A stretch of 64,000 nucleotides of DNA, from assembly GCA_949295905.1 (NCBI GenBank), contig CASFNA010000006.1:186001-250000 (forward strand). Reading direction: 5' to 3'. Below are positions 3,921-58,742 of this stretch, piece after piece. Origin of the DNA: an uncultured Prevotellaceae bacterium (GTDB lineage: Bacteria > Bacteroidota > Bacteroidia > Bacteroidales > Bacteroidaceae). The position numbers and the translations under genes were made by a program. A model generated the notes under the pieces. The model was not told the origin of the DNA. It saw nothing but the letters and a program-made list of their open reading frames with translations, and did not search any database. The first letter of the stretch is position 1; every line of letters begins with the position of its first letter.

Positions 3921-4203
3921 TTATATGGTATGGTCGTTATCCGATGGTTCCCCTCCGTTCGTTTTTCCGCAAAAATATATAATCACAATCGTAAATAAAT
4001 AATATTGTCGTATTGTTCATGGCTTGTTTTATGGTGAAAGGCCTTGTTTCGCATCATGATACATGGTTTATGGCATTGTGGTTCGAGGTCAAATGAATGC
4101 CGTTGGATTATCCGTTAAAACATGATAGAATGTTTGTGTTATAGCAAATAAGGTCGCTTAAATTATAAAAAGATTGATTTTTTGAAAAATATTTCGGTAA
4201 AAA

Positions 4204-4235
4204 TTTGCGAGAATAGAATTAAATGCTTACCTTTG
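4204..4235 (+). promoter_or_regulatory. Promoter of the tRNA-Ser/tRNA-Glu pair
   Basis: TTTG at 4204-4207, a 20-base spacer and TACCTTTG at 4228-4235. The tRNA-Ser begins 45 bases further on. Confidence 0.75.
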
Positions 4236-4279
4236 CAACCGCATTTGAGCGATAATGCTTCGGTACAATAAACCGGAAA

Positions 4280-4367
4280 GGAAGTTTGGGTGAGTGGCTG
4301 AAACCAGCAGTTTGCTAAACTGCCGTGCGAGTTTATCGTACCGGGGGTTCGAATCCCCCAGCTTCCG
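4280..4367 (+). tRNA. tRNA-Ser (anticodon GCT)
   Basis: An 88-nt cloverleaf. The acceptor stem GGAAGTT pairs with AGCTTCC. The anticodon stem GCAGT/ACTGC encloses the loop TTGCTAA, giving anticodon GCT for AGC/AGU codons. A long variable arm and the T-loop GGTTCGAATCC confirm a class II serine tRNA. CCA is not encoded. Confidence 0.95.
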
Positions 4368-4400
4368 CGAGGTTGGAGGATGGTGTCGACATGAAATAAT

Positions 4401-4472
4401 GGTGGATTCATCTAATGGTTAGGATACAAGATTCTCAATCTTGGCATAGGGGTTCGATTCCCCTATCCACTA
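4401..4472 (+). tRNA. tRNA-Glu (anticodon CTC)
   Basis: A 72-nt cloverleaf. GGTGGAT pairs with ATCCACT (first pair G-T), the anticodon stem CAAGA/TCTTG encloses TTCTCAA, and the T arm reads GGGGTTCGATTCCCC. The CTC anticodon reads GAG. It lies 33 bases after tRNA-Ser and is followed at once by a terminator, so the two are probably co-transcribed. Confidence 0.94.
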
Positions 4473-4477
4473 CAAGT

Positions 4478-4517
4478 AAAAGCCGTCAGACGATTTTGTC
4501 TGACGGCTTTTGTGTTT
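4478..4517 (+). terminator. Terminator of the tRNA operon
   Basis: AAAGCCGTCAGAC and GTCTGACGGCTTT form a near-perfect stem with a GATTTT loop, followed by TGTGTTTTTG. Confidence 0.88.
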
Positions 4518-4630
4518 TTGTATTCCGTTGATAATGGTGTTTTCAGTTATTTGTATTGCAGATTGTGGTATAGTGTTTAGATAATGTGTGTCACAATGTA
4601 AACGATGATTATTTTATCTTGCATGAGGCG

Positions 4631-4660
4631 TTGCTAATCCGAAGTAATTTATTACTTTTG
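4631..4660 (+). promoter_or_regulatory. Promoter of the histidine gene cluster
   Basis: TTG at 4631-4633, a 19-base spacer and TACTTTTG at 4653-4660. This leaves a leader of about 100 bases before hisH. I see no histidine-rich leader peptide in it and no clear attenuator hairpin. Confidence 0.65.
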
Positions 4661-4769
4661 CAGTTGAAATATAATAAAGGTTGAACTGACAATCCGGGAG
4701 GGTAACCGACAGAGTGTGTTGTGCGGTGTTGTTCGATTTATATCTGTACTTGCCGGTTTGTAATGAAAT

Positions 4770-5360
4770 ATGGATGTAGCGATTGTCAAATACAATGCAG
4801 GGAATGTGTATAGCGTTGTAAACGCTTTGCGCAGGTTGGGGGTGGAACCGTTGTTGACTGATGACGGGGAAAGGATAAAGTCTGCTGACAAGGTCGTGTT
4901 TCCCGGGCAAGGTGAAGCCGCTGGTGCTATGGGGTATTTGTGCAGGCGTGGACTCGACAAAATCATAAAAGGGCTTAGGCAGCCTGTTCTTGGCATCTGT
5001 ATAGGCCAGCAGTTGCTTTGTCGGCATTCGGAAGAAGGTGATACCGATTGCCTTGGTGTTTTCGATGTAGATGTGCGGAGGTTTGTTCCGTTACGTCATG
5101 AAGACAAGGTTCCTGCGATGGGATGGAATTCGTTGTACGGGTTGGAGACGCCGTTGTTTAAGAATATACCCGATGGCGAATTTGTATATTTTGTCCACAG
5201 TTATTATGTCCCTGTATGCGATTTCACCGTAGCAAAGTCGGATTACATCCATACGTATAGTGCTGCCATGTGCAAAGGCAATTTTTATGCAACGCAGTTC
5301 CATCCAGAAAAGAGCGGAAGCGTTGGCGAGGCAATAATGCGTAATTTCCTTGAAATATGA
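4770..5360 (+). CDS. hisH: Imidazole glycerol phosphate synthase, glutamine amidotransferase subunit HisH
   Basis: A 196-residue class I amidotransferase that releases ammonia from glutamine and passes it to HisF. The nucleophile motif GICIGQQLLC contains the catalytic cysteine near residue 77. TQFHPEKSG near residue 180 carries the His-Glu pair. FPGQGEA supplies the oxyanion-strand region. It is the first gene of the his cluster and precedes hisA by about 60 bases. Length is normal. Confidence 0.95.
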   Translation: MDVAIVKYNAGNVYSVVNALRRLGVEPLLTDDGERIKSADKVVFPGQGEAAGAMGYLCRRGLDKIIKGLRQPVLGICIGQQLLCRHSEEGDTDCLGVFDVDVRRFVPLRHEDKVPAMGWNSLYGLETPLFKNIPDGEFVYFVHSYYVPVCDFTVAKSDYIHTYSAAMCKGNFYATQFHPEKSGSVGEAIMRNFLEI

Positions 5361-47139: not shown

Positions 47140-47195
47140 GTCGCTTGTCTGTATTTAATGATTGCATGTTCTTTTGTACATCATTTTTGAGCGTG

Positions 47196-47203
47196 CAAAT
47201 ATA
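47196..47203 (-). promoter_or_regulatory. -7 box of the HU gene
   Basis: On the minus strand TATATTTG, an exact TAnnTTTG match, 57 bases before the HU start. The -33 element is weak. Confidence 0.5.
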
Positions 47204-47891
47204 CAGCTTTTTGTTGTGAAATGGAAATTTATTTTGCTTTTTTTGCTTAAATGCGCTATAAATCACGCAGTTACGGCGGTCTGTATTTCATGTCGGCCCG
47301 GTTGTCGTCAGTCTGCCTGTTTGTCAACCTGAAGTGTGGTTTCCGTGTCATTTGTCTATTTTGAGATTGTCGGGCAAATGTGTTGAAACAGGTTGGCCTT
47401 GGCATGGTTTCCGGCTTACGTTGCGGTGTATTGCCGTGCCTTGTGTTGCGAAAAGCCGTGAGTTGTCCTGCGTTTTGCCGTCTTTCATTGCTCGAAAGGC
47501 CGTCTTCGGGGTTCGGCTTCGGCGTTTAAATACCTCGTTTCCGGCGGTGTTTCAGCCTCGTTTTTGTTGTTTCAGGGCGTTTTTTCGACTGTTTATATTG
47601 CACATGTTCGCCTGCTTCCGGCTTAATGCCTTGTGTTGCAGGCCTTTGCGTTTGCACACTTGAAACGCGCGTATTTGCGACGGTTGCCATGCTCTTTCTT
47701 GAATAGCGTATTCCTGGAGCGTCATGCTGAATCAGTTTGTAATTAAGAAAGTTGTTTTTCACAGCAAAGTGTAAATCCACAAGACTGTCACGGCGCGTCG
47801 TTTCCCAGTTGAGGAAAATATTTCCTGACGGCAAATCTTTCATCGAATCCACTGTGCTTCAAACTTTTTTCTTGAATGAACCATTATGAAC

Positions 47892-47922
47892 TTGTATGGC
47901 GTTTTTTTATTGCCTAACTTTG
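47892..47922 (+). promoter_or_regulatory. Promoter of the surface-protein cluster
   Basis: TTG at 47892-47894, a 20-base spacer and TAACTTTG at 47915-47922. The leader is then about 105 bases long. Confidence 0.72.
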
Positions 47923-48033
47923 CAAAAACAAACCGGAAAGCATGCCGGAAACGCGTTGCTGCGATGTCGGCTACGGGGGGTAGGATATAACGGGAAACCA
48001 ACATACACCATATATATTAATAATTAACAAGCT

Positions 48034-48966
48034 ATGACTATGAAGACAGTTAAGAAGTTATTTACGTTTATGTTAGCGGCAGGCGCGCTTTGCGCCTGCT
48101 CTTCGGGCGGCGGAACCGGCCAGCCCGACGTGCCCGAGCCACCTGCACCTACGGGCAAGTTGCCAATCGTCATCAGTACATCCGTTAGCGGGGTTGAAGA
48201 TACGCGCGTTACCGACTACGCCTTCGAGGCCGGCGACGCAGTGGGCCTTTACGTTGTCAACCGCGGCGCCGACGGCGCGGCCGGCGCGTTGCTTGCAGAG
48301 GGCAACCATGTTGACAACATGCGCTTTACGTACAGCGGCACATGGATTGCCGACTCGCCGGTTTACTGGCTCGACAACACCACGCACGCCGACTTTTACC
48401 TCTATTATCCCTATACGCCCTCCGTGGCTGATGTCAGTGCAATGCCCGTCAGCGTCAATGCCGACCAAAGCACGGAGTCAGCCTACAAGGCCGGCGACAT
48501 TGTGGTAGGCTCGGCACTCGACGTAGCCCCCACCGAAAGCGCGGTGGTTATCGCCGCCAGGCACGTCATGAGCCAGATGCTCATAACCCTTGTTCCTGGT
48601 AACGGCTTCACGGCCGAGAGCCTTGCCGCTGCCGACATAGCTGTAAGGGTGAACGGTGTGAAGACCGGCGCTACGGTCAACCTCGCCACGGGCGCAGTTG
48701 CGGCTACGGGCGCAGCCACGGCGGTAACCCCTTTGTGTGCTGACGGCGTTTACCGTGCGCTCGTCGTGCCGCAGAGCGTGCCCGAGGGCAACCTCATCAC
48801 CGTAACCGTTGACGGCCGCGACTTCAACCTCAAAAAGGCGTTCACCTTCGTCAGCGGCAAGCGCCACAAGTTTACCGTCACCCTGAGCAAGACCTCGAGC
48901 GGCATCAACGTTACCATCGACCAGTGGATTGACGACGGCACGGACAACGGCGGAGTGGCAGAGTAA
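48034..48966 (+). CDS. Fimbrillin-family lipoprotein
   Basis: A 310-residue outer-membrane lipoprotein (MKTVKKLFTFMLAAGALCACSS; lipid cysteine near residue 22). A fimbrillin/Mfa1-like two-lobed beta domain fills the rest: TRVTDYAFEAGDAVGLYV near residue 57, FYLYYPYTP near 128, AARHVMSQMLITLV near 172 and YRALVVPQSVPEGN near 250. The same landmarks recur in the next two surface proteins, so these are paralogues. It could be a fimbrial subunit or anchor, or a monomeric surface protein. The gene is GC-rich. It is the first gene of the cluster. Confidence 0.82.
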   Translation: MTMKTVKKLFTFMLAAGALCACSSGGGTGQPDVPEPPAPTGKLPIVISTSVSGVEDTRVTDYAFEAGDAVGLYVVNRGADGAAGALLAEGNHVDNMRFTYSGTWIADSPVYWLDNTTHADFYLYYPYTPSVADVSAMPVSVNADQSTESAYKAGDIVVGSALDVAPTESAVVIAARHVMSQMLITLVPGNGFTAESLAAADIAVRVNGVKTGATVNLATGAVAATGAATAVTPLCADGVYRALVVPQSVPEGNLITVTVDGRDFNLKKAFTFVSGKRHKFTVTLSKTSSGINVTIDQWIDDGTDNGGVAE

Positions 48967-49108
48967 GTTTAATGTTGTTGGGATTATGCGGTTATTGGAG
49001 TGTGCGGTTGTCTAAGGCCGTTGCCCATTTTCCGGTTCTCCTCATTATTCCCAGTATCCAGATTTTCCCGGCTCGCCCGGTTCTCCCATAAGTTAAAAAC
49101 CGAAAAAT

Positions 49109-52100
49109 ATGAATATGAAGACCAACCAACACATTTATATATATGTCCTTGCGTGCGCCATGGCGTTCGCAGGCTGTTCTGACGACTTGTTTGATGGCGG
49201 CTCCGCAAATGGCGGAGCCAGCCGCATCGAGCTGTCGGGCGAAATAGACCAGATGGCCGTGACCCGTGTCAACGACAGCGGTTTTTGTGACGGCGACGTG
49301 ATGGGCGTTTACATCGTGGACTACGAGGGCAACAATCCCGGCACGTTGCAGGTGAGCGGCAACCGTGGCGACAACGTGCGCCACACGTTTGACGAGGAGA
49401 ACTATAAATGGAACTCTGCCTACGACCTGTATTGGAAAGACAAGCACACTCATATTGACGTTTACGGATATTATCCTTACGGCTCACCCGAGAGCGTTGA
49501 TGCTTACTCTTTTACCGTGCAGCGCGACCAGAGCACCGCTTCCGCTGAAGGTGGACTGGGCGGATACGAGGCCAGCGACTTCCTATGGGGCAAGGTAGCC
49601 GACGTTGCCCCGACTACCAGCGTAATCCGCCTGCCCATGCAGCACCGCATGGCCAACGCCCGCGTAACTCTCGTTGAGGGCACGGGTTTTGCCGCAGGAG
49701 AGTGGGCGCAGACCGACAAAATAGTGCTTGCGGCCAACCTTGTGCGCGAAGCCTCAATCAATCTGGCCGACGGAACGGTCACCCCGACGGGTGAAGTGGA
49801 GCAGACTATGACTGTGCCCAGCCGCAACGGTGACGAGTGGCGCGCCATTGTAGTGCCGCAGACTGTGCCGTCAGGAGCTACGCTCTTCAGCATAACCATC
49901 GGCGGTGTGCCTTACAAGTTTTCCAAGAACGAGGCGTTTACCTACGTCGCAGGCAAGATGAACAACTTTTCAATACGCGTTGACAAGAAGGCCGCCAGCG
50001 GACAATACACCCTCACGCTTATCAGCGAGAGCATAACTCCGTGGGAGAACGACCTCGTAAGCCATGACGCAACGACGCGTGAATATGTCATCATCAACTC
50101 TACCGCAGGCCACCTGAAAGACTCTATCATGGCGGCCAACAAGGACTACACGCAGGTGAAGAACTTGAAAATTACGGGTGCGATAAATACACAGGATTTC
50201 TATTTCATGCGCGATTCGATGGATAATTTGCAAGCTCTGAATTTGAAGGACGTTACGGCTTATAGCGACTTTATCGATAGTATGACTGGAAATGATGCAC
50301 CTTCAATAGTTTCAACAGAAGGATTAATTCCATATGAAGCTTTCTATAATAAGGTGTCGTTAGTATATATTGTTTTTCCTGATAAGTTAAAAGGAATTAG
50401 CGCAAGGTCTTTTGTTGGGTGTGATAACTTGTCTGGTTCAATATCTGTACCGGAAGGTGTGATTGCTATTGGAAGCCAGGCTTTTCGGGGATGTTCTTTC
50501 TTAACCGGGTCGTTGTCATTACCAAGCACGTTAGAGTATATAGGTGAAGGTACCTTTGCAGGTTGTAATTTTTCATGTGAATTGATTTTACCTAATAGCT
50601 TGCGATATATAGGAAAGAATGCGTTTGGTGATTTTGATGTCGGAGGTGGTTCATATTATGGAAATTTGATTTTGCCTGATAATTTGGAATATTTGGGTGA
50701 GGGTGCTTTCATATATTGTGACGATTTAAAGGGAGATCTTAAAATTCCTCAAAAGGTGAAAGTTCTACGTGACAATGTTTTTAATACGACAGGTTTTGAT
50801 GGTACACTTACTTTACATGACGGCATAATAAGTATTGGAAGTGGTGTGTTTGGATGTCCATTGAAAGGGGAACTTGTATTGCCCAAACACATTGTTACAA
50901 TTGGCTCAAATGCATTTTCTTGTAATTTTTCAGGACGGTTAGTCATGCATGAAGGTGTGGAATCAATCGGAGATGCGGCATTTGCGGGAAATAAGTTTAC
51001 AGGTGTTATCGAGTTGCCTGAAGGATTACGTGATATAGGTCGTAGTGCATTTAGTGGCTGTACGAGTTTAGAAGGTATTGTAATACCTTCAAGTGTGGAG
51101 AATATACGTGATTATGCGTTTAGTGGCTGTTATGGTATAGGTTCGATTGTATGTAAAGGCGAGATGCCGGCTCATGTGGGAAATAGTGCGTTCGACGGCG
51201 TACCCAAAGACAATTTCACGCTTGAAGTGCCAGAACTGGCAGTACCACAATATCAGACGGCAATAGGGTGGAATGAGTTTAAGCGCATAGCGGCCCATCA
51301 CGAGCTTGTGTGCCGTCCGTCAATCGCTTGCGCGTTGAATACAGAGCGCACGCAGACGCTTGTCGTTGATGCGGAAGGTGAATGGGAAGTGGCGAGCAAG
51401 CCCGACTGGTGCGAACTGTCGAAGATAAGCGGCGGTGACAAGACGGAAGTGATGCTCGCCATCAAAGCCTTGGCACAAGGTGCAGGCGACCGTACCGGCG
51501 AAATAGTGTTCAAGCTGAAAGACGAGGATTACACCCACACGTGTACCGTGTCGCAATACGATTACGAGTATGGCGAAGACGAATGGCTGACGCTGCAAAA
51601 GGCTACGCGTGGCAACAACGGCGGCATCAACATCGTAATACTTGGCGACGGCTACAATGCAGAAGACATTGCCAGCGGCGACTATCTTGCCAATATAAAG
51701 CAGCAGATGGAGTATTTCTTCGGTGTAGAACCTTACACTACTTATCGTGGCTACTTCAACGTGTACACGGCGTTCCCACTTTCACAAGAGACTGGCGTAG
51801 GCTCTGTCAACACAATCCGCTATAACCGTTTCAATACTACTTACACAGGCGGAACGGGGCTTAGTGCCGATAACGACGCAATATTCGAGTATGCACTCAA
51901 TGCTCCAACGGTGAACACTGGCAACCTCAATCAGACGCTAATAATCATCGTGCCCAATAGTACTGACTACGGCGGAATAACGAATATGTGGGCTGACGGC
52001 TCGGCCATAGCTTTCTGTCCGCTAAGTACTTATGAATATCCGCTCGACTCGCGTGGCGTAATCCAGCACGAGGCCGGTGGTCACGGTTTCGGAAAACTTG

Positions 52101-52594
52101 GTGATGAATACATTTATCATAACGCTTTCGTTGATGTTTGCAGTTGTTTGTGTTGCGAGCATGTTGGTGAGTTTAATCAAGCCAAGGCAAACGGCTGGTA
52201 CGACAACCTTTCACTGACGGGCAAGATGCACGAAGTGCCTTGGAGCCATCTTATCTTTGACGACCGTTATAGCGACTTGGTGGATATATACGAGGGCGGC
52301 TTCATGCACAGTAGGGGAGTGTTCCGCTCGGAGCAGAACTCCTGTATGAACAACAACATTCCCTACTTCAGTACCATAAGCCGCGAGAGCATAGTGAAAC
52401 GTATCAAGCAGTATGCCGGCGAGACGTACTCGTTTGAGGAGTTTGTCGCCAACGACAAGCGCGATGCTGGCGCCGTTACACGTAGTGCGGACGTGAAGGT
52501 GAGTGGACGCACGATGCACAGCTACCAAATGCCGCCGCGCATTCACAAGGGCAGTCCGCTGAAGGGGCTAAAGACGAAGGGAACAAGAAGGTAA
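49109..52594 (+). CDS. Fimbrillin-LRR-BACON-M64 peptidase fusion lipoprotein
   Basis: A 1161-residue surface lipoprotein (AFAGC, lipid Cys23). Domains in order: fimbrillin-like (37-295; TRVNDSGFCDGD, YGYYPYG, WRAIVVPQTVPSG); BspA-type leucine-rich repeats (about 350-700; repeats such as IGSQAFRGCS, IGEGTFAGCN, IGRSAFSGCT); BACON-like sandwich (about 735-817; VASKPDWCELSKISG); and an IgA-peptidase M64 domain (about 825-1110; IVILGDGYNAED, zinc motif HEAGGHGFGKLGDE at 987-1000). The helix reads HExxxH rather than HExxH. The likely role is an adhesin that also cuts host or neighbouring proteins (inference). The LRR part is AT-rich, unlike both sides. Confidence 0.85.
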   Translation: MNMKTNQHIYIYVLACAMAFAGCSDDLFDGGSANGGASRIELSGEIDQMAVTRVNDSGFCDGDVMGVYIVDYEGNNPGTLQVSGNRGDNVRHTFDEENYKWNSAYDLYWKDKHTHIDVYGYYPYGSPESVDAYSFTVQRDQSTASAEGGLGGYEASDFLWGKVADVAPTTSVIRLPMQHRMANARVTLVEGTGFAAGEWAQTDKIVLAANLVREASINLADGTVTPTGEVEQTMTVPSRNGDEWRAIVVPQTVPSGATLFSITIGGVPYKFSKNEAFTYVAGKMNNFSIRVDKKAASGQYTLTLISESITPWENDLVSHDATTREYVIINSTAGHLKDSIMAANKDYTQVKNLKITGAINTQDFYFMRDSMDNLQALNLKDVTAYSDFIDSMTGNDAPSIVSTEGLIPYEAFYNKVSLVYIVFPDKLKGISARSFVGCDNLSGSISVPEGVIAIGSQAFRGCSFLTGSLSLPSTLEYIGEGTFAGCNFSCELILPNSLRYIGKNAFGDFDVGGGSYYGNLILPDNLEYLGEGAFIYCDDLKGDLKIPQKVKVLRDNVFNTTGFDGTLTLHDGIISIGSGVFGCPLKGELVLPKHIVTIGSNAFSCNFSGRLVMHEGVESIGDAAFAGNKFTGVIELPEGLRDIGRSAFSGCTSLEGIVIPSSVENIRDYAFSGCYGIGSIVCKGEMPAHVGNSAFDGVPKDNFTLEVPELAVPQYQTAIGWNEFKRIAAHHELVCRPSIACALNTERTQTLVVDAEGEWEVASKPDWCELSKISGGDKTEVMLAIKALAQGAGDRTGEIVFKLKDEDYTHTCTVSQYDYEYGEDEWLTLQKATRGNNGGINIVILGDGYNAEDIASGDYLANIKQQMEYFFGVEPYTTYRGYFNVYTAFPLSQETGVGSVNTIRYNRFNTTYTGGTGLSADNDAIFEYALNAPTVNTGNLNQTLIIIVPNSTDYGGITNMWADGSAIAFCPLSTYEYPLDSRGVIQHEAGGHGFGKLGDEYIYHNAFVDVCSCLCCEHVGEFNQAKANGWYDNLSLTGKMHEVPWSHLIFDDRYSDLVDIYEGGFMHSRGVFRSEQNSCMNNNIPYFSTISRESIVKRIKQYAGETYSFEEFVANDKRDAGAVTRSADVKVSGRTMHSYQMPPRIHKGSPLKGLKTKGTRR

Positions 52595-52608
52595 TTACTT
52601 AAAATGGA

Positions 52609-53511
52609 ATGAAGATGAAAAGAAATATAATAAAATACGTTGTGGCGGCGTTATTCATAATGGGGTTGCCGTCATGTTCGTCACAAGATGAAAATGATGC
52701 TCCGCCCGTTGATGCAAAGCATACGCCGATGACATTCTCCGTAACCCATCCGGCACAGCGTACTCGGGTTACTGACACCGGCTTCGAGGACGGCGACCGC
52801 ATAGGGTTGTTCGTTGCCGCGCAGGACGCTCCGTTGGAAATAGGCGGAAACCTTGTCAACAATGAACCGTTAACCCTTGGCGGCGGAGCTTGGACCGCCG
52901 GGCGCACGCTTTATTGGGATGAAGGAACGTTCAATGCTTATGCCTATTACCCATATACGGCACAGGTAAGTTCGATTGAAGACATGCCTTTCAGCGTGAG
53001 TACGGAGCAAGGGACGGTAGACGGAGCATCGGGCATAGACGGTTATGAGTCCAGCGACTTCCTTTATGCGAGGACGGAAGGCGTAAGCGCATCTAACGCT
53101 CCTGTAAGCCTTACGTTCAGGCATGTAATGAGCAAGTTGACCGTGCGCCTAATCAAAGGTGAGGACTTTGAGGGCGACATGCCGACGGATGCTGTTGTAT
53201 ATGTGCACAACACTGTGCCAACGGCTACCATAGACTTGAATGCCGGGGTGGCCACGCGCTATGTGCGCGGAATACGGGCTACAATCGAGGCCAAGCAGGA
53301 GAGTGACTACATGTTCTCGGCCATTCTGGTGCCGCAGCGCGTGGAAAACCGTATGCCGTTGATAGAGGTTGTGATGAAAGGAGTCTCATACATGTATGAA
53401 AGTACGTTCCAGTTTAAGCCCGGTACGGAGCACCTTGTAAATTTTGTAATATCCGACAATCCCGACCAGATAAAGATAGAAATAGGAGGAGAAATCGAGG
53501 ATTGGCAATAA
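52609..53511 (+). CDS. Fimbrillin-family lipoprotein, second paralogue
   Basis: A 300-residue lipoprotein (VVAALFIMGLPSCSS, lipid cysteine near residue 23). The fimbrillin-like landmarks TRVTDTGFEDGDRIGLFV, YAYYPYT, YESSDFLYAR, FRHVMSKLTVRL and AILVPQRVENR line up with those of the two preceding proteins. It starts 15 bases after the M64 fusion gene and ends 3 bases before the next start, so it sits within a continuous operon. Role as for its paralogues, unproven. Confidence 0.82.
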   Translation: MKMKRNIIKYVVAALFIMGLPSCSSQDENDAPPVDAKHTPMTFSVTHPAQRTRVTDTGFEDGDRIGLFVAAQDAPLEIGGNLVNNEPLTLGGGAWTAGRTLYWDEGTFNAYAYYPYTAQVSSIEDMPFSVSTEQGTVDGASGIDGYESSDFLYARTEGVSASNAPVSLTFRHVMSKLTVRLIKGEDFEGDMPTDAVVYVHNTVPTATIDLNAGVATRYVRGIRATIEAKQESDYMFSAILVPQRVENRMPLIEVVMKGVSYMYESTFQFKPGTEHLVNFVISDNPDQIKIEIGGEIEDWQ

Positions 53512-53514
53512 GCG

Positions 53515-54546
53515 ATGAAGACGGCTGTATATATTCTGTCTATATTGATGCTCGTTATAGTAAGCGTGGTGGCGGTTTTGAGGCTGCTGCCCGCTTTTGC
53601 TGTTGATAACAATACTAACGGACGTGTCAGTTTCGGCGTGTACGAAGGCCGTGAACTTGTTGAGCTTGTAGACCGCAAGGGCAACACTTGCTACATTGTC
53701 GAGGACGGCAATGGGAACAAGCTGTTCAATGTACCGGTGCGTGACTGTATGATAGACGTTCGTTTCCGTGACGGGCGGCTGCGCTTCCGCGAAAAGGCTA
53801 CCGGTAGGACAGGCTTTGTTGACAGGAACGGCATTGTTACGTTTAATCAAGAAGGTCGGACCGCCGGTTATGAACAGGCTAAATATGAACAGGCAAAGTT
53901 TCAGCCGCAGGTAACTGGAGTTGTGCATGAGAAACGGAGTAACAAGCCGGGGGCTGCACAGTCAGGGCGGCTTGACGATGTTGCGCTGCGCAGGCTTAAG
54001 AGTGACAATCCGTTTTACCGCGAGGCTGTAAGGGTCTTGTCTGGAAAGCTTGGTGAAAACGACGCGGAGCGACGGCGTGTCATCCTGAACTACTGTGAGC
54101 ATTTCAGGATGGCGTATGTTACTAAAGACATTGATTTCATCCGCCAGCTTTTCAGCGGCCATGCGTTGATAATAGTAGGCAATGTGGTAAAGTCAGTTCC
54201 TGATGAGGGCAAAGAGTTTGCATCGGGTAAGCGTGTGGAGTATTATCTGCGAACCAAGGATGAATATATAAAAAGGTTGACAGCTGCTTTTGCCGCCAAT
54301 AAGAAAATTGATGTTAGGTTTTCCGATTTTCGGATAATGCGCCATCCTACAATCGACGGGATTTACGGTGTAAGCCTGCGTCAGCGTTATAGCAGCGATC
54401 GTTATTCTGACGACGGCTGGTTGTTCTTGCTTTGGGATTTCCGTGACGAGTCCATGCCTTGCATATATGTGAGGACGTGGCAACCGGCGGATGATGTACA
54501 TGATGGCGGCGATGTGATAAGTATCGGTGATTTTAATATGGAGTGA
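53515..54546 (+). CDS. Exported NTF2-like domain protein
   Basis: A 343-residue protein with an N-terminal membrane anchor or signal (YILSILMLVIVSVVAVLRLL). A first beta-rich region (about 35-115) has a repeated DRKGNTCYIVEDGNGNKLF/DRNGIVTFN pattern. A linker contains a short direct repeat (YEQAK twice). The C-terminal half (about 185-330) matches the NTF2/SnoaL-like family of Bacteroidales exported proteins (LRTKDEYIKRLTAAFAANKKI, RHPTIDGIYGVSLRQ, LFLLWDFRD, VRTWQP). I recall such proteins near PEGA-domain proteins and kinases. Function unknown. Its stop overlaps the next start. Confidence 0.7.
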   Translation: MKTAVYILSILMLVIVSVVAVLRLLPAFAVDNNTNGRVSFGVYEGRELVELVDRKGNTCYIVEDGNGNKLFNVPVRDCMIDVRFRDGRLRFREKATGRTGFVDRNGIVTFNQEGRTAGYEQAKYEQAKFQPQVTGVVHEKRSNKPGAAQSGRLDDVALRRLKSDNPFYREAVRVLSGKLGENDAERRRVILNYCEHFRMAYVTKDIDFIRQLFSGHALIIVGNVVKSVPDEGKEFASGKRVEYYLRTKDEYIKRLTAAFAANKKIDVRFSDFRIMRHPTIDGIYGVSLRQRYSSDRYSDDGWLFLLWDFRDESMPCIYVRTWQPADDVHDGGDVISIGDFNME

Positions 54547-55529
54547 TGGTAAAACGAGTGTTGTGCTTTTGCTTGTCGTTGTTAGCCGCAGCTGTAATGT
54601 TGGCTGGCGGTAAGCTTGGGTTGCGGTTGGACGGGTCGGAAAGTATGGTTGGCGCGCGGTTTCAGGTTGTAGGTTTTAGGGCCTTGCCAAATGATGTCAG
54701 CGCGTTCATATCGCCAGTTTATGACCTTAACGGGGAGGCGTGCGCTTTGGTAAAAGTCGTTGCTTCTGCTGATTTTGCGTTTTCTTCCCCTCTTGGAATC
54801 GTGAAACGTAAGAATGAGACAGGTGAAGTGTGGTTATATATGCCAAAGGGTACCAAACTGCTTACAATAAAGCATCCGCAGTGGGGCGTTATGAGGAACT
54901 ACCGTTTTGCGAGAACTTTGGAAAGTCATGTAACTTACGAACTTACAATAAAGACACCAAGCGTGTCACCCATATTGAAGACCGATACGGTAATACTGAC
55001 TAAAACAGTTACTGACACTGTTGTTGTGGCAGGCGGCAGACCAAAGGTCCCATTGGCTATGCACGCCATGTTGACAGTGTCGATGCATTCCAACGGTCCT
55101 TCATACGGGGTTATGTTCGCAATGTTGCGCAGGCATGGCTTTTTCCTACATGCGCAAAGCGATATGAAGAGTGTTGGAGAAACATCGATTGCATGTGACA
55201 GAAATGGTTTTTTGGATGATGGCGCCAAGCCGTATTATTCAGGGAAAACACGCCATTCAAACTATGTGTTTACCGTTGGTCCTGTACACCGTCTGTGCCG
55301 ATGGCTTGACTTGTTTTACGGCATAGGTTACGGCCGTACAGCGACAGCGTGGCAGCTCGCAGAAAGCGAGGGCGGCGGATATGTGTTGAATGACGGTTAC
55401 ACTCATAAAGGTATTGCTGCCGAAGCTGGCGTACTGTTGTCAATTGGACGTATCAGCGTGTCTACATCAGCAGTAACTGTGGCGTGCAAGCAGTGGCAAG
55501 CCTGTTTGGGGTTGGGTATCAAGATATAG
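54546..55529 (+). CDS. Exported PEGA-like / small-barrel protein
   Basis: A 327-residue protein with a signal peptide (FCLSLLAAAVMLAGG). Residues about 25-135 read as the beta-sandwich domain that in Bacteroidales often accompanies PEGA modules (PVYDLNGEACALVKVV, GEVWLYMPKGTKLLTIKH). A Thr/Val linker (TDTVILTKTVTDTVVV) leads to about 150 residues of alternating strands that may form a small membrane barrel. The ATG at 54546 shares one base with the preceding stop (TGATG); a GTG at 54543 is the alternative start. No enzymatic motif. Confidence 0.65.
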   Translation: MVKRVLCFCLSLLAAAVMLAGGKLGLRLDGSESMVGARFQVVGFRALPNDVSAFISPVYDLNGEACALVKVVASADFAFSSPLGIVKRKNETGEVWLYMPKGTKLLTIKHPQWGVMRNYRFARTLESHVTYELTIKTPSVSPILKTDTVILTKTVTDTVVVAGGRPKVPLAMHAMLTVSMHSNGPSYGVMFAMLRRHGFFLHAQSDMKSVGETSIACDRNGFLDDGAKPYYSGKTRHSNYVFTVGPVHRLCRWLDLFYGIGYGRTATAWQLAESEGGGYVLNDGYTHKGIAAEAGVLLSIGRISVSTSAVTVACKQWQACLGLGIKI

Positions 55530-55547
55530 TTGACGAATTTATAATAT

Positions 55548-57185
55548 ATGTATAAGCCATTTATTGTGTTATTGGTGTTATGCGCCGCTTTATCAGCTTG
55601 CAGTGAGGAGGACGCACCGGACAATTTGGAGCCTCGCCTTCTTGTAGGCGAAGCTGTTGACATAACACGGCATGAGGCCACGTTGCCAGGGCGTGTGGAG
55701 TTGAGCGGCAGTACAGCCATGCCTGAACTTTGGTTCGAGTATTGTTCCGATGCAGGCATGGAGACTTTTACTTGTCAGGCTGATGATGCAGGCGACGGCG
55801 GCGTTCAGGCGCGTATTACTGGACTGAAACCCGGTACGAAGTATGAATACCGTCTCAAAGGTAGCAATGGCAGGGCTACTGTAAGTAGCGATATTGGCAC
55901 ATTCTTGACATTGTCCAACGACAAGCCGGCAATTACCGGGCTACAGATATTAAGCCAAGGGCCTACAAGCGTCATTGCGGCTTTTGAGATAACTGATGAT
56001 GGCGGAGAGGACATTATGGAGGCAGGATGTTACATTGCCGACCTGGGTTCAGGCTCTGTCGATAAATTGCAGGCAGAATACAGCAGTTCGATTGACGGCG
56101 TTATTTGCCGTATTGTAATAAAAGGATTGAGACAGTCTGCCGAGTACGAACTTTGTCCGTATGCGGCGAACAGTAGTGGTGAGACTAAGGGGGAACCGTT
56201 GCCTTTTGCCACGCGGAATGTTGTCATGATGAGCGAGCCGGGAGAATTGGCCGAGCTATTAGGGGATGACATGTACCAGTATGAGGAAATGACATTCGCC
56301 GGGCCGATGAATGGTTACGACATACGTTGCCTTAGGCGGATGATGGGACGTGATGTTGACGGTTCGGAAACTCCTGGCCGGTTGGCGCATGTAGATATGA
56401 CCGATGTAAACATCGTATCAGGTGGTGGCAGTTATGACATGTCGCGATATACCGAGGATGATGTCATTGGATATGGCATGTTTGCCGATTGTACACGGCT
56501 GGAGGAAATAGCCATGCCGTCTACTGTCAAGACCATAAGCAAGGACGCTTTCCGTGATTGCGTTTCGCTGGAGCGTATCTCGATTCCGGCTGGGGTTGTG
56601 GATGTAACACCTTCTGGCGGTTGCCAAGCATTGCAGTGTGTGGAAGTTTCGCAGGCAAATGAGTATTATAGCAGCGTTGACGGTGTGCTTTTCGATGCAG
56701 GGGTGTCAAGTATTGTATGGTTCCCTATGGGTAAGAACGGAGATTACGAGCTTCCCGCCACGGTTACGTCAGTCGGCGATTATGCTTTTAGAGGCTGTAA
56801 CATATCAGAGTTTGTCTTTCCAGACGGGGTCACAGAGTTAGGGAAGGCTGTATTCTTGGAAAGCAAGGTTGAGCGTGTTGTCTTGCCGGATGGATTGAAG
56901 CTGTTGCCTTCGGCCACGTTCCAAGACTGTGCAAAGCTTTGCGAGGTTAAACTCGGCAAAGGAATGGAGCTTGTGTCTGACTACGTGTTTGACGGGTGTA
57001 CGCTTTCCGACATATATGTTGGGGCCAAATATCCGCCAGTGTGCAGCGATAATGCGTTTGACGGTACGGCGGATGACTTTTTCTCGACATGTGTTCTGCA
57101 TGTACCTGCAAGTCGTCTTGCAATGTACAAGGCAGACAATAAATGGGGACGCTTTGACAATATAATAGGAATAGACGGAATATGA
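55548..57185 (+). CDS. Fibronectin-III / leucine-rich-repeat surface lipoprotein (BspA-like)
   Basis: A 545-residue lipoprotein (LLVLCAALSACSEE, lipid cysteine near residue 18). Two fibronectin type III-like domains (about 30-215; ITGLKPGTKYEYRLKGSNG and IKGLRQSAEYELCPYAANS) are followed by BspA-type leucine-rich repeats (about 300-520; ISKDAFRDCVSLERISIP, VGDYAFRGCNISEFVFP, LPSATFQDCAKL). BspA-type repeats mediate adhesion in oral Bacteroidales (family knowledge). The base composition here is like its neighbours, unlike the LRR section of the M64 fusion. Its stop overlaps the next start by 4 bases. Confidence 0.8.
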   Translation: MYKPFIVLLVLCAALSACSEEDAPDNLEPRLLVGEAVDITRHEATLPGRVELSGSTAMPELWFEYCSDAGMETFTCQADDAGDGGVQARITGLKPGTKYEYRLKGSNGRATVSSDIGTFLTLSNDKPAITGLQILSQGPTSVIAAFEITDDGGEDIMEAGCYIADLGSGSVDKLQAEYSSSIDGVICRIVIKGLRQSAEYELCPYAANSSGETKGEPLPFATRNVVMMSEPGELAELLGDDMYQYEEMTFAGPMNGYDIRCLRRMMGRDVDGSETPGRLAHVDMTDVNIVSGGGSYDMSRYTEDDVIGYGMFADCTRLEEIAMPSTVKTISKDAFRDCVSLERISIPAGVVDVTPSGGCQALQCVEVSQANEYYSSVDGVLFDAGVSSIVWFPMGKNGDYELPATVTSVGDYAFRGCNISEFVFPDGVTELGKAVFLESKVERVVLPDGLKLLPSATFQDCAKLCEVKLGKGMELVSDYVFDGCTLSDIYVGAKYPPVCSDNAFDGTADDFFSTCVLHVPASRLAMYKADNKWGRFDNIIGIDGI

Positions 57186-57757
57186 ATACACCAGAGATAG
57201 AGGAACTGAAATTGCTTGTTGAACGTAAATACGGACGTGTGCTTGGCACGACAACGGATTTTGAAGAATTTTCGTTGCATGTGTGCCGACAGTGCGGTAT
57301 GCGTTTGTCTGCATCGACATTGAAGCGTATCTGGGGTTATGTAGGCGACAGCCACATGCCGCGCAGGTGTACGCTTGACATCTTGGCTCGCTACATAGGC
57401 CATGGGGACTATAATGAATTCAAGTGTTGGCTTAAGACGAGCACGAGGTACAATTCGTCTTTTTTCGCTGCCAGTCAGCTAACCAGCAGCGAGCTTGCGC
57501 CTGGGGCGTCTGTTGAGATTGGCTGGAGTCCCAACCGTCTTGTACGGTTGGGCTACCTCGGTGACAGTCTGTATGAGGTAGTCTGCTCGGCCAACAGCAA
57601 GTTACAGCCTGGCGACAGGTTCGTAACGGGCTGTTTTATCAAGGAGCAGCCGCTTTACCTTCCTTTCATTGAGCGCGGCGGCATACGTACAACTCCGTTT
57701 GTTGCCGGGCGCAACGGGGGCTTGACGATAATAAAGGTTACGGACGGCAAGGCATGA
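57182..57757 (+). CDS. Putative DNA-binding regulator of a Bacteroidales-specific family
   Basis: A 191-residue cytoplasmic protein. Residues 1-85 are helical and contain MRLSASTLKRIWGYVGDSHMPRRCTLDILARYIGHGDYNEFKCWL. The family with S-x-x-TLKR-x-WGY and TLD-x-LARYIG motifs is common in Prevotella and looks like a helix-turn-helix. Residues about 100-190 form a beta-rich domain (ASVEIGWSPNRLVRLGYLG). It overlaps the previous gene by 4 bases and the kinase gene by 4 bases, suggesting that it and the kinase are made together. A regulator role is an inference. Confidence 0.6.
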   Translation: MNTPEIEELKLLVERKYGRVLGTTTDFEEFSLHVCRQCGMRLSASTLKRIWGYVGDSHMPRRCTLDILARYIGHGDYNEFKCWLKTSTRYNSSFFAASQLTSSELAPGASVEIGWSPNRLVRLGYLGDSLYEVVCSANSKLQPGDRFVTGCFIKEQPLYLPFIERGGIRTTPFVAGRNGGLTIIKVTDGKA

Positions 57758-58695
57758 TTATGGAAAACGCAGGTACATCCGGATATACAGAACAGCTTGA
57801 CGGCGAGATGGATGCTCCGTCAATTCCTGTAGACAGTGCATTTAGCGGTCTACGTAGCTTCTATGTGTCTCCGCATGGACATACACAGCTTTTTTACGCC
57901 TCGAGGTATGGCAAGTCATATGTCCTTAAATGCCTGAAGGCTGATTACCTTTACACACCGGTTTACAGGCAAGCTTTGGTCAAGGAATTTGAAATCGGAG
58001 TACAGCTCGACCATCCCGGAATCTGCCGTACAATAGGAATGGAAGATGTGCCAGGTCTTGGCCCAGCCATAATAATGGAGCGTGTTGACGGCTGCACGCT
58101 TGCAGAGCTGATAGGCAGGAAGGGTTTGACCAAGCCTTTGGCGCGTAAGATTGCAGTTCAGGCCGGCTCTGCAATTGATTATATTCACAGCAAGCAAGTA
58201 ATCCACCGCGACCTGAAACCCTCGAACATAATGGTCACATATAACGGGCATAATGTAAAACTGATAGATTTCAGTCTTGCAGACAGTGATGCTTTCGAGG
58301 TGCTGAAGCAGCCGGCGGGAACATCCGGCTACATAGCACCCGAGCTGCTTCAGCCTGGTGCGAAAGCCGACGCACGCAGTGATATATATTCATTCGGAAT
58401 GGTTTTGGCCGGCATGGCGCGTATAACAGGTGACAGACGCCTGTCCGCTGTGGCGGCAGAGTGTACGCGTCGTAATGCCAGTGAACGTCCGGCAAGTGTT
58501 CCACAGATGAAGGAGCCGTTTGTGCCGCGTTTTAGATTTTTGTTTGTTCTCTTCGTCGTTGTTGCCGTTTTGGCAGCCGTCGCTTGTGCCGTAATATTGC
58601 CGTTGCGGCATAGAACCAGCATTGCAGGCCAATCGGTAGATAATGTGGAGCCTGACGGCAACAGTGCTGTTGACTGTGCGGAATGGCCGCGATAA
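57754..58695 (+). CDS. Membrane-anchored Hanks-type Ser/Thr protein kinase, DFS variant
   Basis: A 313-residue protein. The kinase core spans about 35-250: ATP lysine K59 in YVLKCL, Glu79 in the C-helix, the catalytic loop HRDLKPSN (151-158), DFS at 172-174, the APE triad at 195-197 and SDIYSFG near 209. The glycine-rich loop is not obvious. A transmembrane helix (about 260-283) leads to a short exported tail of about 30 residues with no sensory domain. All catalytic residues are present except the glycine of DFG. It is the last gene of the cluster; targets may be the overlapping regulator or cell-surface assembly factors (speculative). Confidence 0.85.
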   Translation: MIMENAGTSGYTEQLDGEMDAPSIPVDSAFSGLRSFYVSPHGHTQLFYASRYGKSYVLKCLKADYLYTPVYRQALVKEFEIGVQLDHPGICRTIGMEDVPGLGPAIIMERVDGCTLAELIGRKGLTKPLARKIAVQAGSAIDYIHSKQVIHRDLKPSNIMVTYNGHNVKLIDFSLADSDAFEVLKQPAGTSGYIAPELLQPGAKADARSDIYSFGMVLAGMARITGDRRLSAVAAECTRRNASERPASVPQMKEPFVPRFRFLFVLFVVVAVLAAVACAVILPLRHRTSIAGQSVDNVEPDGNSAVDCAEWPR

Positions 58696-58711: not shown

Positions 58712-58742
58712 TTGGATTGTAATGTAAATTTTCGTACCTTTG
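58712..58742 (+). promoter_or_regulatory. Promoter of the yeiH-like gene
   Basis: TTG at 58712-58714, a 20-base spacer and TACCTTTG at 58735-58742. Confidence 0.75.

Follow-up and report, generated by a model that had tools for sequence, protein, structure and literature searches.

The eight genes o1 to o8, which run together on the plus strand at 48034..58695 of the window (the whole 64,000-nucleotide stretch of DNA analysed here) and are all present as a preliminary description had them, are a conserved system when their gene content is compared among relatives. As a whole, the locus is best explained as an envelope-to-gene signalling operon built on a kinase, the regulator o7 and an operator, a reading to which we give a probability of roughly two in three. 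In the proposed circuit, the surface LRR lipoprotein o6, the outer-membrane barrel o5 and the inner-membrane NTF2-like protein o4 would report the state of the surface to o8, a single-pass Ser/Thr kinase, which would change the state of o7, most simply by phosphorylation, with S92 as the candidate site. o7 would bind the tandem TGAAC repeat beside the -33 element and control one promoter, most likely as an activator. The output of this promoter would be three fimbrillin-type lipoproteins that may assemble into a pilus, o2 with its LRR-BACON-M64 part being the probable tip, together with the signalling proteins themselves, resulting in feedback. This reading is carried by the conservation of the gene set, the operator, its link with o7 and a series of domain fusions, all read directly from sequence. 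The features of the locus are as follows.

47877..47891, plus strand: operator, direct repeat TGAAC-N5-TGAAC with a 10-bp period, adjoining the -33 element (pattern search)
47892..47922, plus strand: promoter, TTG at 47892-47894, spacer of 20 bp, -7 element TAACTTTG at 47915-47922
48034..48966, plus strand: o1, fimbrillin-like lipoprotein (Mfa_like_1, 3e-62)
49109..52594, plus strand: o2, fimbrillin - BspA LRR - BACON - M64 metallopeptidase lipoprotein, candidate pilus tip (Pfam)
52609..53511, plus strand: o3, fimbrillin-like lipoprotein (Mfa_like_1, 1e-62)
53515..54546, plus strand: o4, membrane-anchored NTF2-like protein (Cds6_C, below cut-off in the window)
54546..55529, plus strand: o5, beta domain and 8-strand outer-membrane barrel
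55548..57185, plus strand: o6, FN3-like/BspA-LRR lipoprotein (LRR_5, 6e-30)
57182..57757, plus strand: o7, DNA-binding domain of CI-like type (about 1-86), then a disordered linker containing S92 and a C-terminal beta domain
57754..58695, plus strand: o8, Hanks-type Ser/Thr kinase, single TM helix, short outer tail (Pkinase, 113 bits)

Histidine kinase and receiver domains of two-component systems had no match in o1-o8 (Pfam, NCBIfam), and no phosphatase family was matched in the operon (Pfam), the latter being a point against the circuit.

Gene content and order across Bacteroidales

An alignment scan of named genomes with o7 gave 339 relatives. The best 80 of these loci, taken with flanks of at most 10 kb per side, were sorted by phmmer into types A, B and C. 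Type A, 26 of these best 80 loci, holds o4-o5-o6 on the strand of o7, with o8 and with o1-o3 as far as the contigs reach, and is found in Prevotella, Paraprevotella, Xylanibacter rarus, Leyella stercorea and Marseilla massiliensis. Type B (23 of the best 80), found in Bacteroides acidifaciens, B. faecalis, B. bouchesdurhonensis, Phocaeicola faecicola and Butyricimonas synergistica, has o4-o5-o6 convergent with o7-o8, and the flanks retrieved contain o3 in 22 and o2 in 21 of the 23 loci. Type C (31 of the best 80) consists of L155-L180 and five rearranged or cut loci, including L139 of B. faecichinchillae. A kinase match was present in 76 of the best 80 o7 loci, at most 100 bp from o7 in 66 and farther away in 10, and was absent in 4. 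In a tree of o7 and o8 combined (75 rows, omitting loci whose kinase was missing or too short), every type A row fell into one clade with one type C row (100/99), and every type B row into another with five type C rows (99/96).

The gene-order comparison for which the preliminary description had called was therefore favourable to it, since the gene content recurs in different genera and families (among the 80 loci, 26 are of type A and 23 of type B). Its picture of a surface module under signal control that encodes its own kinase and regulator stands as far as this conserved content and an operator tracking o7 are concerned, but not as an obligate coupling to the surface genes. Translational coupling as the general link is not supported, since o7-o8 are a separate convergent unit in type B and o1-o2-o3 lie about 360 kb from o4-o8 in one genome of the family (G008). 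The claim that the products are made in fixed proportion is likewise unsupported, as tight gene spacing does not show fixed proportion.

Linkage is also seen beyond adjacency. Among 151 genomes of the family, o5 was found above 200 bits in 11 and o2 of at least 61% identity in 10 (G103 and G118, where o2 is in pieces, included); all ten are among the eleven with o5, and G137 has o5 without such an o2. A close o7 is present in nine of the ten o2 genomes. The exception is G036, whose sole o7 relative is 36% identical and on another contig, and its retention of the kinase o8 beside o4-o6 without a close o7 counts against the circuit. In G008 the full set co-occurs in spite of the 360 kb. Relatives of o2 at a greater distance (40-48% identity) were found in G130, G123, G034 and G070, all without close o7; G130 has relatives of o1-o2-o3 without o7 or kinase matches, and G123 carries o2 in tandem. 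Based on this co-occurrence pattern of o2, o5 and o7, the surface cassette appears separable in deep time and co-inherited with the signalling genes in this clade.

The operator and the o7 family

Upstream of o1, the direct repeat TGAACCATTATGAAC abuts a promoter with a spacing of 20-21 bp; in the window the order is TGAACCATTATGAACTTG, the next 20 bp and then TAACTTTG, so that the repeat abuts the TTG at -33. TTG with TAACTTTG, which we take by consensus to be a Bacteroidales promoter, is the only one of its type upstream of o1-o8 within 47140-58695. Allowing three mismatches, the operator was found in 12/12 type A upstream regions of o1 that are long enough (the window, L103, L105, L107, L111, L112, L113, L116, L118 with 3 mismatches, L120, L137 and L138), a count that leaves aside five more type A loci with o1 whose contigs end too close to the gene. 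Information content in the operator alignment is about 2 bits over the repeat as well as the -7 element, with low values in the spacer. The pattern matches once in the window against a shuffle mean of 0.02-0.04, and the bacterium's own genome holds one perfect site and four further matches, each with 3 mismatches (reversed control, 2).

Judged by its distribution, the operator tracks o7 and not the surface genes. The strict operator-promoter pattern occurs in 8 of the 151 family genomes (G000, G022, G048, G069, G103, G118, G137 and G149), and all eight fall among the ten that have an o7 of at least 48% identity; the other two are G138, with a one-mismatch site (L067), and G008, with none. It was found in 0 of the other 141 family genomes, and the reversed-pattern control gave 0 in all 151. 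The association with close o7 over the 151 genomes (Fisher 8e-12) ignores kinship and overstates independence because five of the ten close-o7 genomes are of one genus. No operator site was found in G036, which has o2, o4, o5, o6 and o8 and no close o7, nor in G130, G123, G034 and G070, which have o2-like genes and no close o7. With a slightly looser pattern run on whole genomes, a site was found in 38 of 42 o7 genomes. These 42 belong to the set of 54 loci that are type A, type B or rearranged, in which the other 12 already had a site in the flank. This test overlaps with that on 151 genomes because at least three assemblies are common to both (L106 = G118, L110 = G069, L181 = G008). The site is missing despite o7 in G008 and in the genomes of L128, L132 and L134, which counts against the circuit.

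The spacer is 20 bp in 63 and 21 bp in 9 of 72 distinct sites, collected from the 151 family genomes, the 80 loci and 30 of the 48 whole-genome sites (those with loci), and it is never 19 or 22 bp, though the pattern permitted both. Because the operator adjoins the -33 element with such a fixed spacing, we think it quite probable that o7 is an activator rather than a repressor. Counting duplicates, the gene behind 80 site occurrences is o1 in 44, o7 in 15, o2 in 2, o6-like in 1, and another or no clear gene in 18; some of these 18 sites stand before genes whose products are not evidently surface proteins, a point against the circuit. In 18 of the 26 distant loci L155-L180, o7 is directly preceded by a site with at most three mismatches, which is evidence for autoregulation.

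The window's o7 had no Pfam match, and HTH_26 appeared at 0.14 in one of 62 o7 relatives. In its AF2 model (pLDDT 84.8), residues 4-86 contain five helices, residues 88-97 are modelled with low confidence, and residues 99-187 make up a beta domain. The top entry in both a sequence profile (E 0.37) and Foldseek (E 0.15, probability 0.84), each a weak score, was 3zhm, the N-terminal domain of the TP901-1 CI repressor on its operator, and an HTH-only profile of o7 did not recover CI; in sequence and model, the o7 N-terminal domain thus weakly resembles phage CI repressors. S92 is Ser in 24/24 rows of a mixed alignment and 62/62 rows of a close one and, lying in the low-confidence linker, is a candidate phospho-acceptor.

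Twenty-eight loci of distant o7 relatives (about 25-43% identity) were examined; 26 of them have a kinase within 6 kb (exceptions L078 and L083), and beyond o7 and the kinase they have no window protein above 100 bits except for LRR similarity in L089, L090 and L095. TGAAC direct repeats occur near o7 in 11 of these 28 loci, with 16 matches from -1800 to +300, all in inverse orientation (GGTTCA) and with a period of 10 or 11. The same search with 59 permuted words gave a mean of 0.56 and a maximum of 4 matches, and 130 kb of loci without o7 contained no TGAAC direct repeat. The repeat was not found near o7 in the other 17 of the 28 loci, which counts against the circuit. On this basis o7 is the putative binder of the TGAAC repeat.

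Kinase, sensor domains and envelope proteins

The Pkinase match of o8 scores 113 bits against a cut-off of 31.7 (Pfam), residues K59, E78, D153, N158 and D172 are invariant in 29 alignment rows, and an HxDLKPxN-type motif is present in 44 of 46 type A and B o8 proteins. With its catalytic Lys, HxD, Asn and DFx, o8 is by sequence a Hanks-type Ser/Thr kinase; an alignment inspected by eye revealed no obvious glycine-rich loop, which counts against the circuit. It is the only PF00069 match found in its own genome, which is 86% complete.

Relatives of the kinase occur fused to sensors, as kinase-TM-NTF2 in L156 (the same as L069), where the NTF2-like domain is homologous to o4, and as kinase-TM-LRR in L091, L100 and L101. 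The o7 N-terminal domain is found as HTH-TM-LRR (L236) and as HTH-TM-PF18491 (L235, L239 and L240). The PF18491 region of kinase L082 is 49% identical over 171 residues to the sensor of L239 (E 4e-54), and the LRRs of L091, L090, L100 and L101 match that of L236. Because sensors shuffle in this way between kinases and o7-type DNA-binding domains, o8 and o7 would belong to one pathway. Full-length, sensor-less o7 has a kinase within 3 kb in 55 of 65 matches, the 10 without one counting against the circuit; for the HTH-only form the count is 0 of 18. In each of these 18 proteins the HTH is followed by a TM helix, and the flanks searched around them (up to 6 kb per side, shorter where contigs end) contain no kinase.

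A broader reading, to which we would give somewhat less than even odds, is that of a new class of signalling circuit widespread in Bacteroidales, combining a Hanks kinase, a CI-like regulator of an undescribed family, tandem TGAAC operators and interchangeable envelope sensor heads, where the heads (BspA LRR, NTF2-like, PF18491) may be attached to the kinase or to the DNA-binding domain, or be separate outer-membrane and surface proteins as in the window. If true, this would amount to a Ser/Thr equivalent of two-component systems, in the window driving a pilus with a protease tip.

Mfa_like_1 was matched in o1, o2 and o3, which identifies all three as fimbrillin-like subunits of the type V fimbriae kind; Mfa2/FimB-type anchor and accessory families had no Pfam or NCBIfam match over the cut-off in o1-o8. 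The M64 domain of o2 scores 53.5 bits against a cut-off of 26 (Pfam), and its zinc motif is present in the window's o2 and in 37 of 41 o2 relatives of at least 700 aa; o2 is probably a tip subunit with an M64 protease. By pattern, a lipobox was recognised among relatives in 12/17 o1, 22/46 o2 and 34/49 o3. o2 is a lipoprotein with a CSDD-type tail and o6 has an acidic tail where a lipobox is recognised (35/50), acidic residues following the cysteine in such relatives of o2, o3 and o6; these residues presumably resemble surface-export signals. Cds6_C is above the cut-off in the o4 homologue of L116. Going by their domains, the surface proteins may serve adhesion and proteolysis.

Alternative readings, known systems and distribution

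o8 might instead act on other targets, such as surface-protein export or the cell wall, with o7 alone being a constitutive or ligand-sensing regulator and the pair merely co-inherited. The C-terminal beta domain of o7, which is unassigned, could indeed bind a ligand, and both the ten full-length o7 matches without a kinase within 3 kb and the o8 kept beside o4-o6 in G036 would fit; however, sensor heads swap between kinases and o7-type domains and the kinase pairs only with head-less o7 (55/65 vs 0/18), so that we regard independent action as unlikely, though deserving of real weight. That the operator is bound by another protein, as a promoter feature or as the site of a different regulator, while o7 has another job, seems to us improbable: the element is missing from 141/141 family genomes without close o7, and the TGAAC direct repeat lies in inverse orientation near o7 in 11 of 28 distant loci, which for the most part have little in common with the window apart from o7 and the kinase, even if the HTH assignment of o7 is weak and 17 of the 28 lack a repeat near o7.

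We find it harder still to see the locus as a common type V (FimA/Mfa1-like) fimbrial operon to which a signalling pair is adjacent by chance, despite the fimbrillin-like o1-o3, the o1-o2-o3 relatives of G130 and the o2 tandem of G123, since genomes with o2 of at least 61% identity have o5 in 10/10 and close o7 in 9/10 cases (not G036), even at 360 kb in G008, and since the operator is located before o1. We give hardly any credence to o8 as an anti-phage defence kinase of the PD-T4-6 kind in a variable locus. PADLOC does match the o8 kinase domain (mad6 5e-38, PD-T4-6 2e-33), but these matches span the generic kinase domain only, o4-o7 were scanned without a match, and gene content is stable across families.

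The signalling operon that we favour has counterparts of already known kinds, namely kinase-regulator pairs and type V fimbriae. PknH-EmbR of Mycobacterium and AfsK-AfsR of Streptomyces are Ser/Thr kinase - transcription factor pairs with an OmpR-like DNA-binding domain. As there, a membrane Hanks kinase is encoded with the DNA-binding protein that it presumably controls, but o7 lacks any Pfam match and its domain is CI-like rather than OmpR-like, the operator is a tandem TGAAC repeat, and the sensors are BspA LRR, NTF2-like, PF18491 or separate envelope proteins. Type V (FimA/Mfa1) fimbriae of Bacteroidales polymerise by strand exchange after Arg-protease cleavage, and the window likewise encodes several Mfa_like_1 lipoprotein subunits together; unlike them, it has a subunit, o2, fused to LRR-BACON-M64, and the operon holds its own kinase, regulator and barrel. 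ToxR-like proteins are one-component membrane regulators, a plan shared by the 18 HTH-TM proteins that contain the o7 domain (L235, L236, L239 and L240 among them), whereas the DNA-binding domain of the window is sensor-less with a kinase adjacent. To our knowledge, the role of Ser/Thr kinases in Bacteroidales is largely open. The M64 domain of o2 resembles the M64 peptidase lipoproteins PDB 3p1v and 4df9 (phmmer 2e-8 and 3e-8), but sits behind a fimbrillin domain, BspA LRR and BACON. BT4244, a BACON-CBM32-M60 mucinase, also joins a putative glycan-binding BACON to a zinc metallopeptidase, although of a different family, and the part of the BT4244 account consulted mentions no fimbrillin or LRR domains and no kinase or regulator (PMC3267712).

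In the open literature searched we found no description of such an operon, and the o7 family, its operator, the split sensor and a protease-bearing fimbrillin in one operon are undescribed there. The locus has the parts of a complete small circuit, with one kinase, one regulator, one operator, one promoter and a predicted phospho-site, and natural variants occur in cultured Bacteroides, Phocaeicola, Butyricimonas, Xylanibacter and Leyella. If our reading is right, it would show how gut commensals switch a protease and surface adhesins according to cues from the envelope or host, and would provide a role for a regulator family that Pfam does not include.

As to distribution, o7 of at least 61% identity is found in 11 of 299 genomes of the window's genus, its own included, and the o7 family has matches in 58 of the 151 sampled family genomes, sensor-bearing forms counted. 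At E 1e-12, 292 of 295 other genomes of the phylum were without an o7 match and three had just the o7 N-terminal domain within larger reading frames; the sample bounds the spread and not the frequency of o7 because it is thin in its own family. Seven other relatives in the genus are uninformative for an empty site because other genes follow HU there. The sister species G154, whose ribonuclease G is 97% identical to that of the window, keeps the order rng, HU, YeiH, gyrA with no operon between HU and YeiH, a difference that either gain or loss could explain. In the stretch compared, G154 aligns solely up to 47274 and from 58802 onward, so the block by which the two differ contains the operator, the promoter and all eight genes.

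A second operator and a zinc-ribbon-like protein

The genomes G048 and G478 each carry a second operator, the TGAAC-N5-TGAAC direct repeat predicted to be bound by the putative regulator o7, and in both it lies upstream of the same 110-aa protein, which holds two zinc-ribbon-like CxYCGKKF motifs:

L190, 301-633; L208, 1566-1898: 110-aa protein behind a second operator (G048 and G478)

A relative of this protein is also encoded in L078 (and in the overlapping L019), the stretch where G036, a genome with surface genes and the kinase, has its only o7 relative. The 110-aa protein is a possible second member of the regulon.

Single-chain membrane regulators

The predicted DNA-binding domain of the o7 type was also found in single-chain membrane regulators, where it is followed by a transmembrane helix in all those examined (18/18). 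Beyond the helix comes a BspA LRR in L236 and a PF18491 domain in L235, L239 and L240.

L235, L236, L239, L240; L244-L258: single-chain membrane regulators with o7-type domain

Variant o2 genes and flanking features

In L105 and in Leyella stercorea (L122), the fimbrillin-LRR-BACON-M64 gene o2 occupies two reading frames, of 906+331 aa and 738+727 aa respectively. Xylanibacter rarus (L108) has a further o2-like ORF (546 aa) ahead of o2, and G123 carries three copies of o2 in tandem.

L105, L122, L108, L243: o2 variant forms

The fimbrillin-like gene o1 (48034-48966) has a GC3 of 0.74 against 0.49-0.58 in o2-o8, and its base composition is therefore unlike that of the other operon genes. Downstream of the operon, the YeiH-type gene has its own separate upstream promoter (TTG-N20-TAnnTTTG, 58712-58742), which is without the operator. 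In L083, a TGAAC-rich minisatellite with a period of mostly 9 bp (4191-4877) lies ~4-5 kb from an o7 relative.
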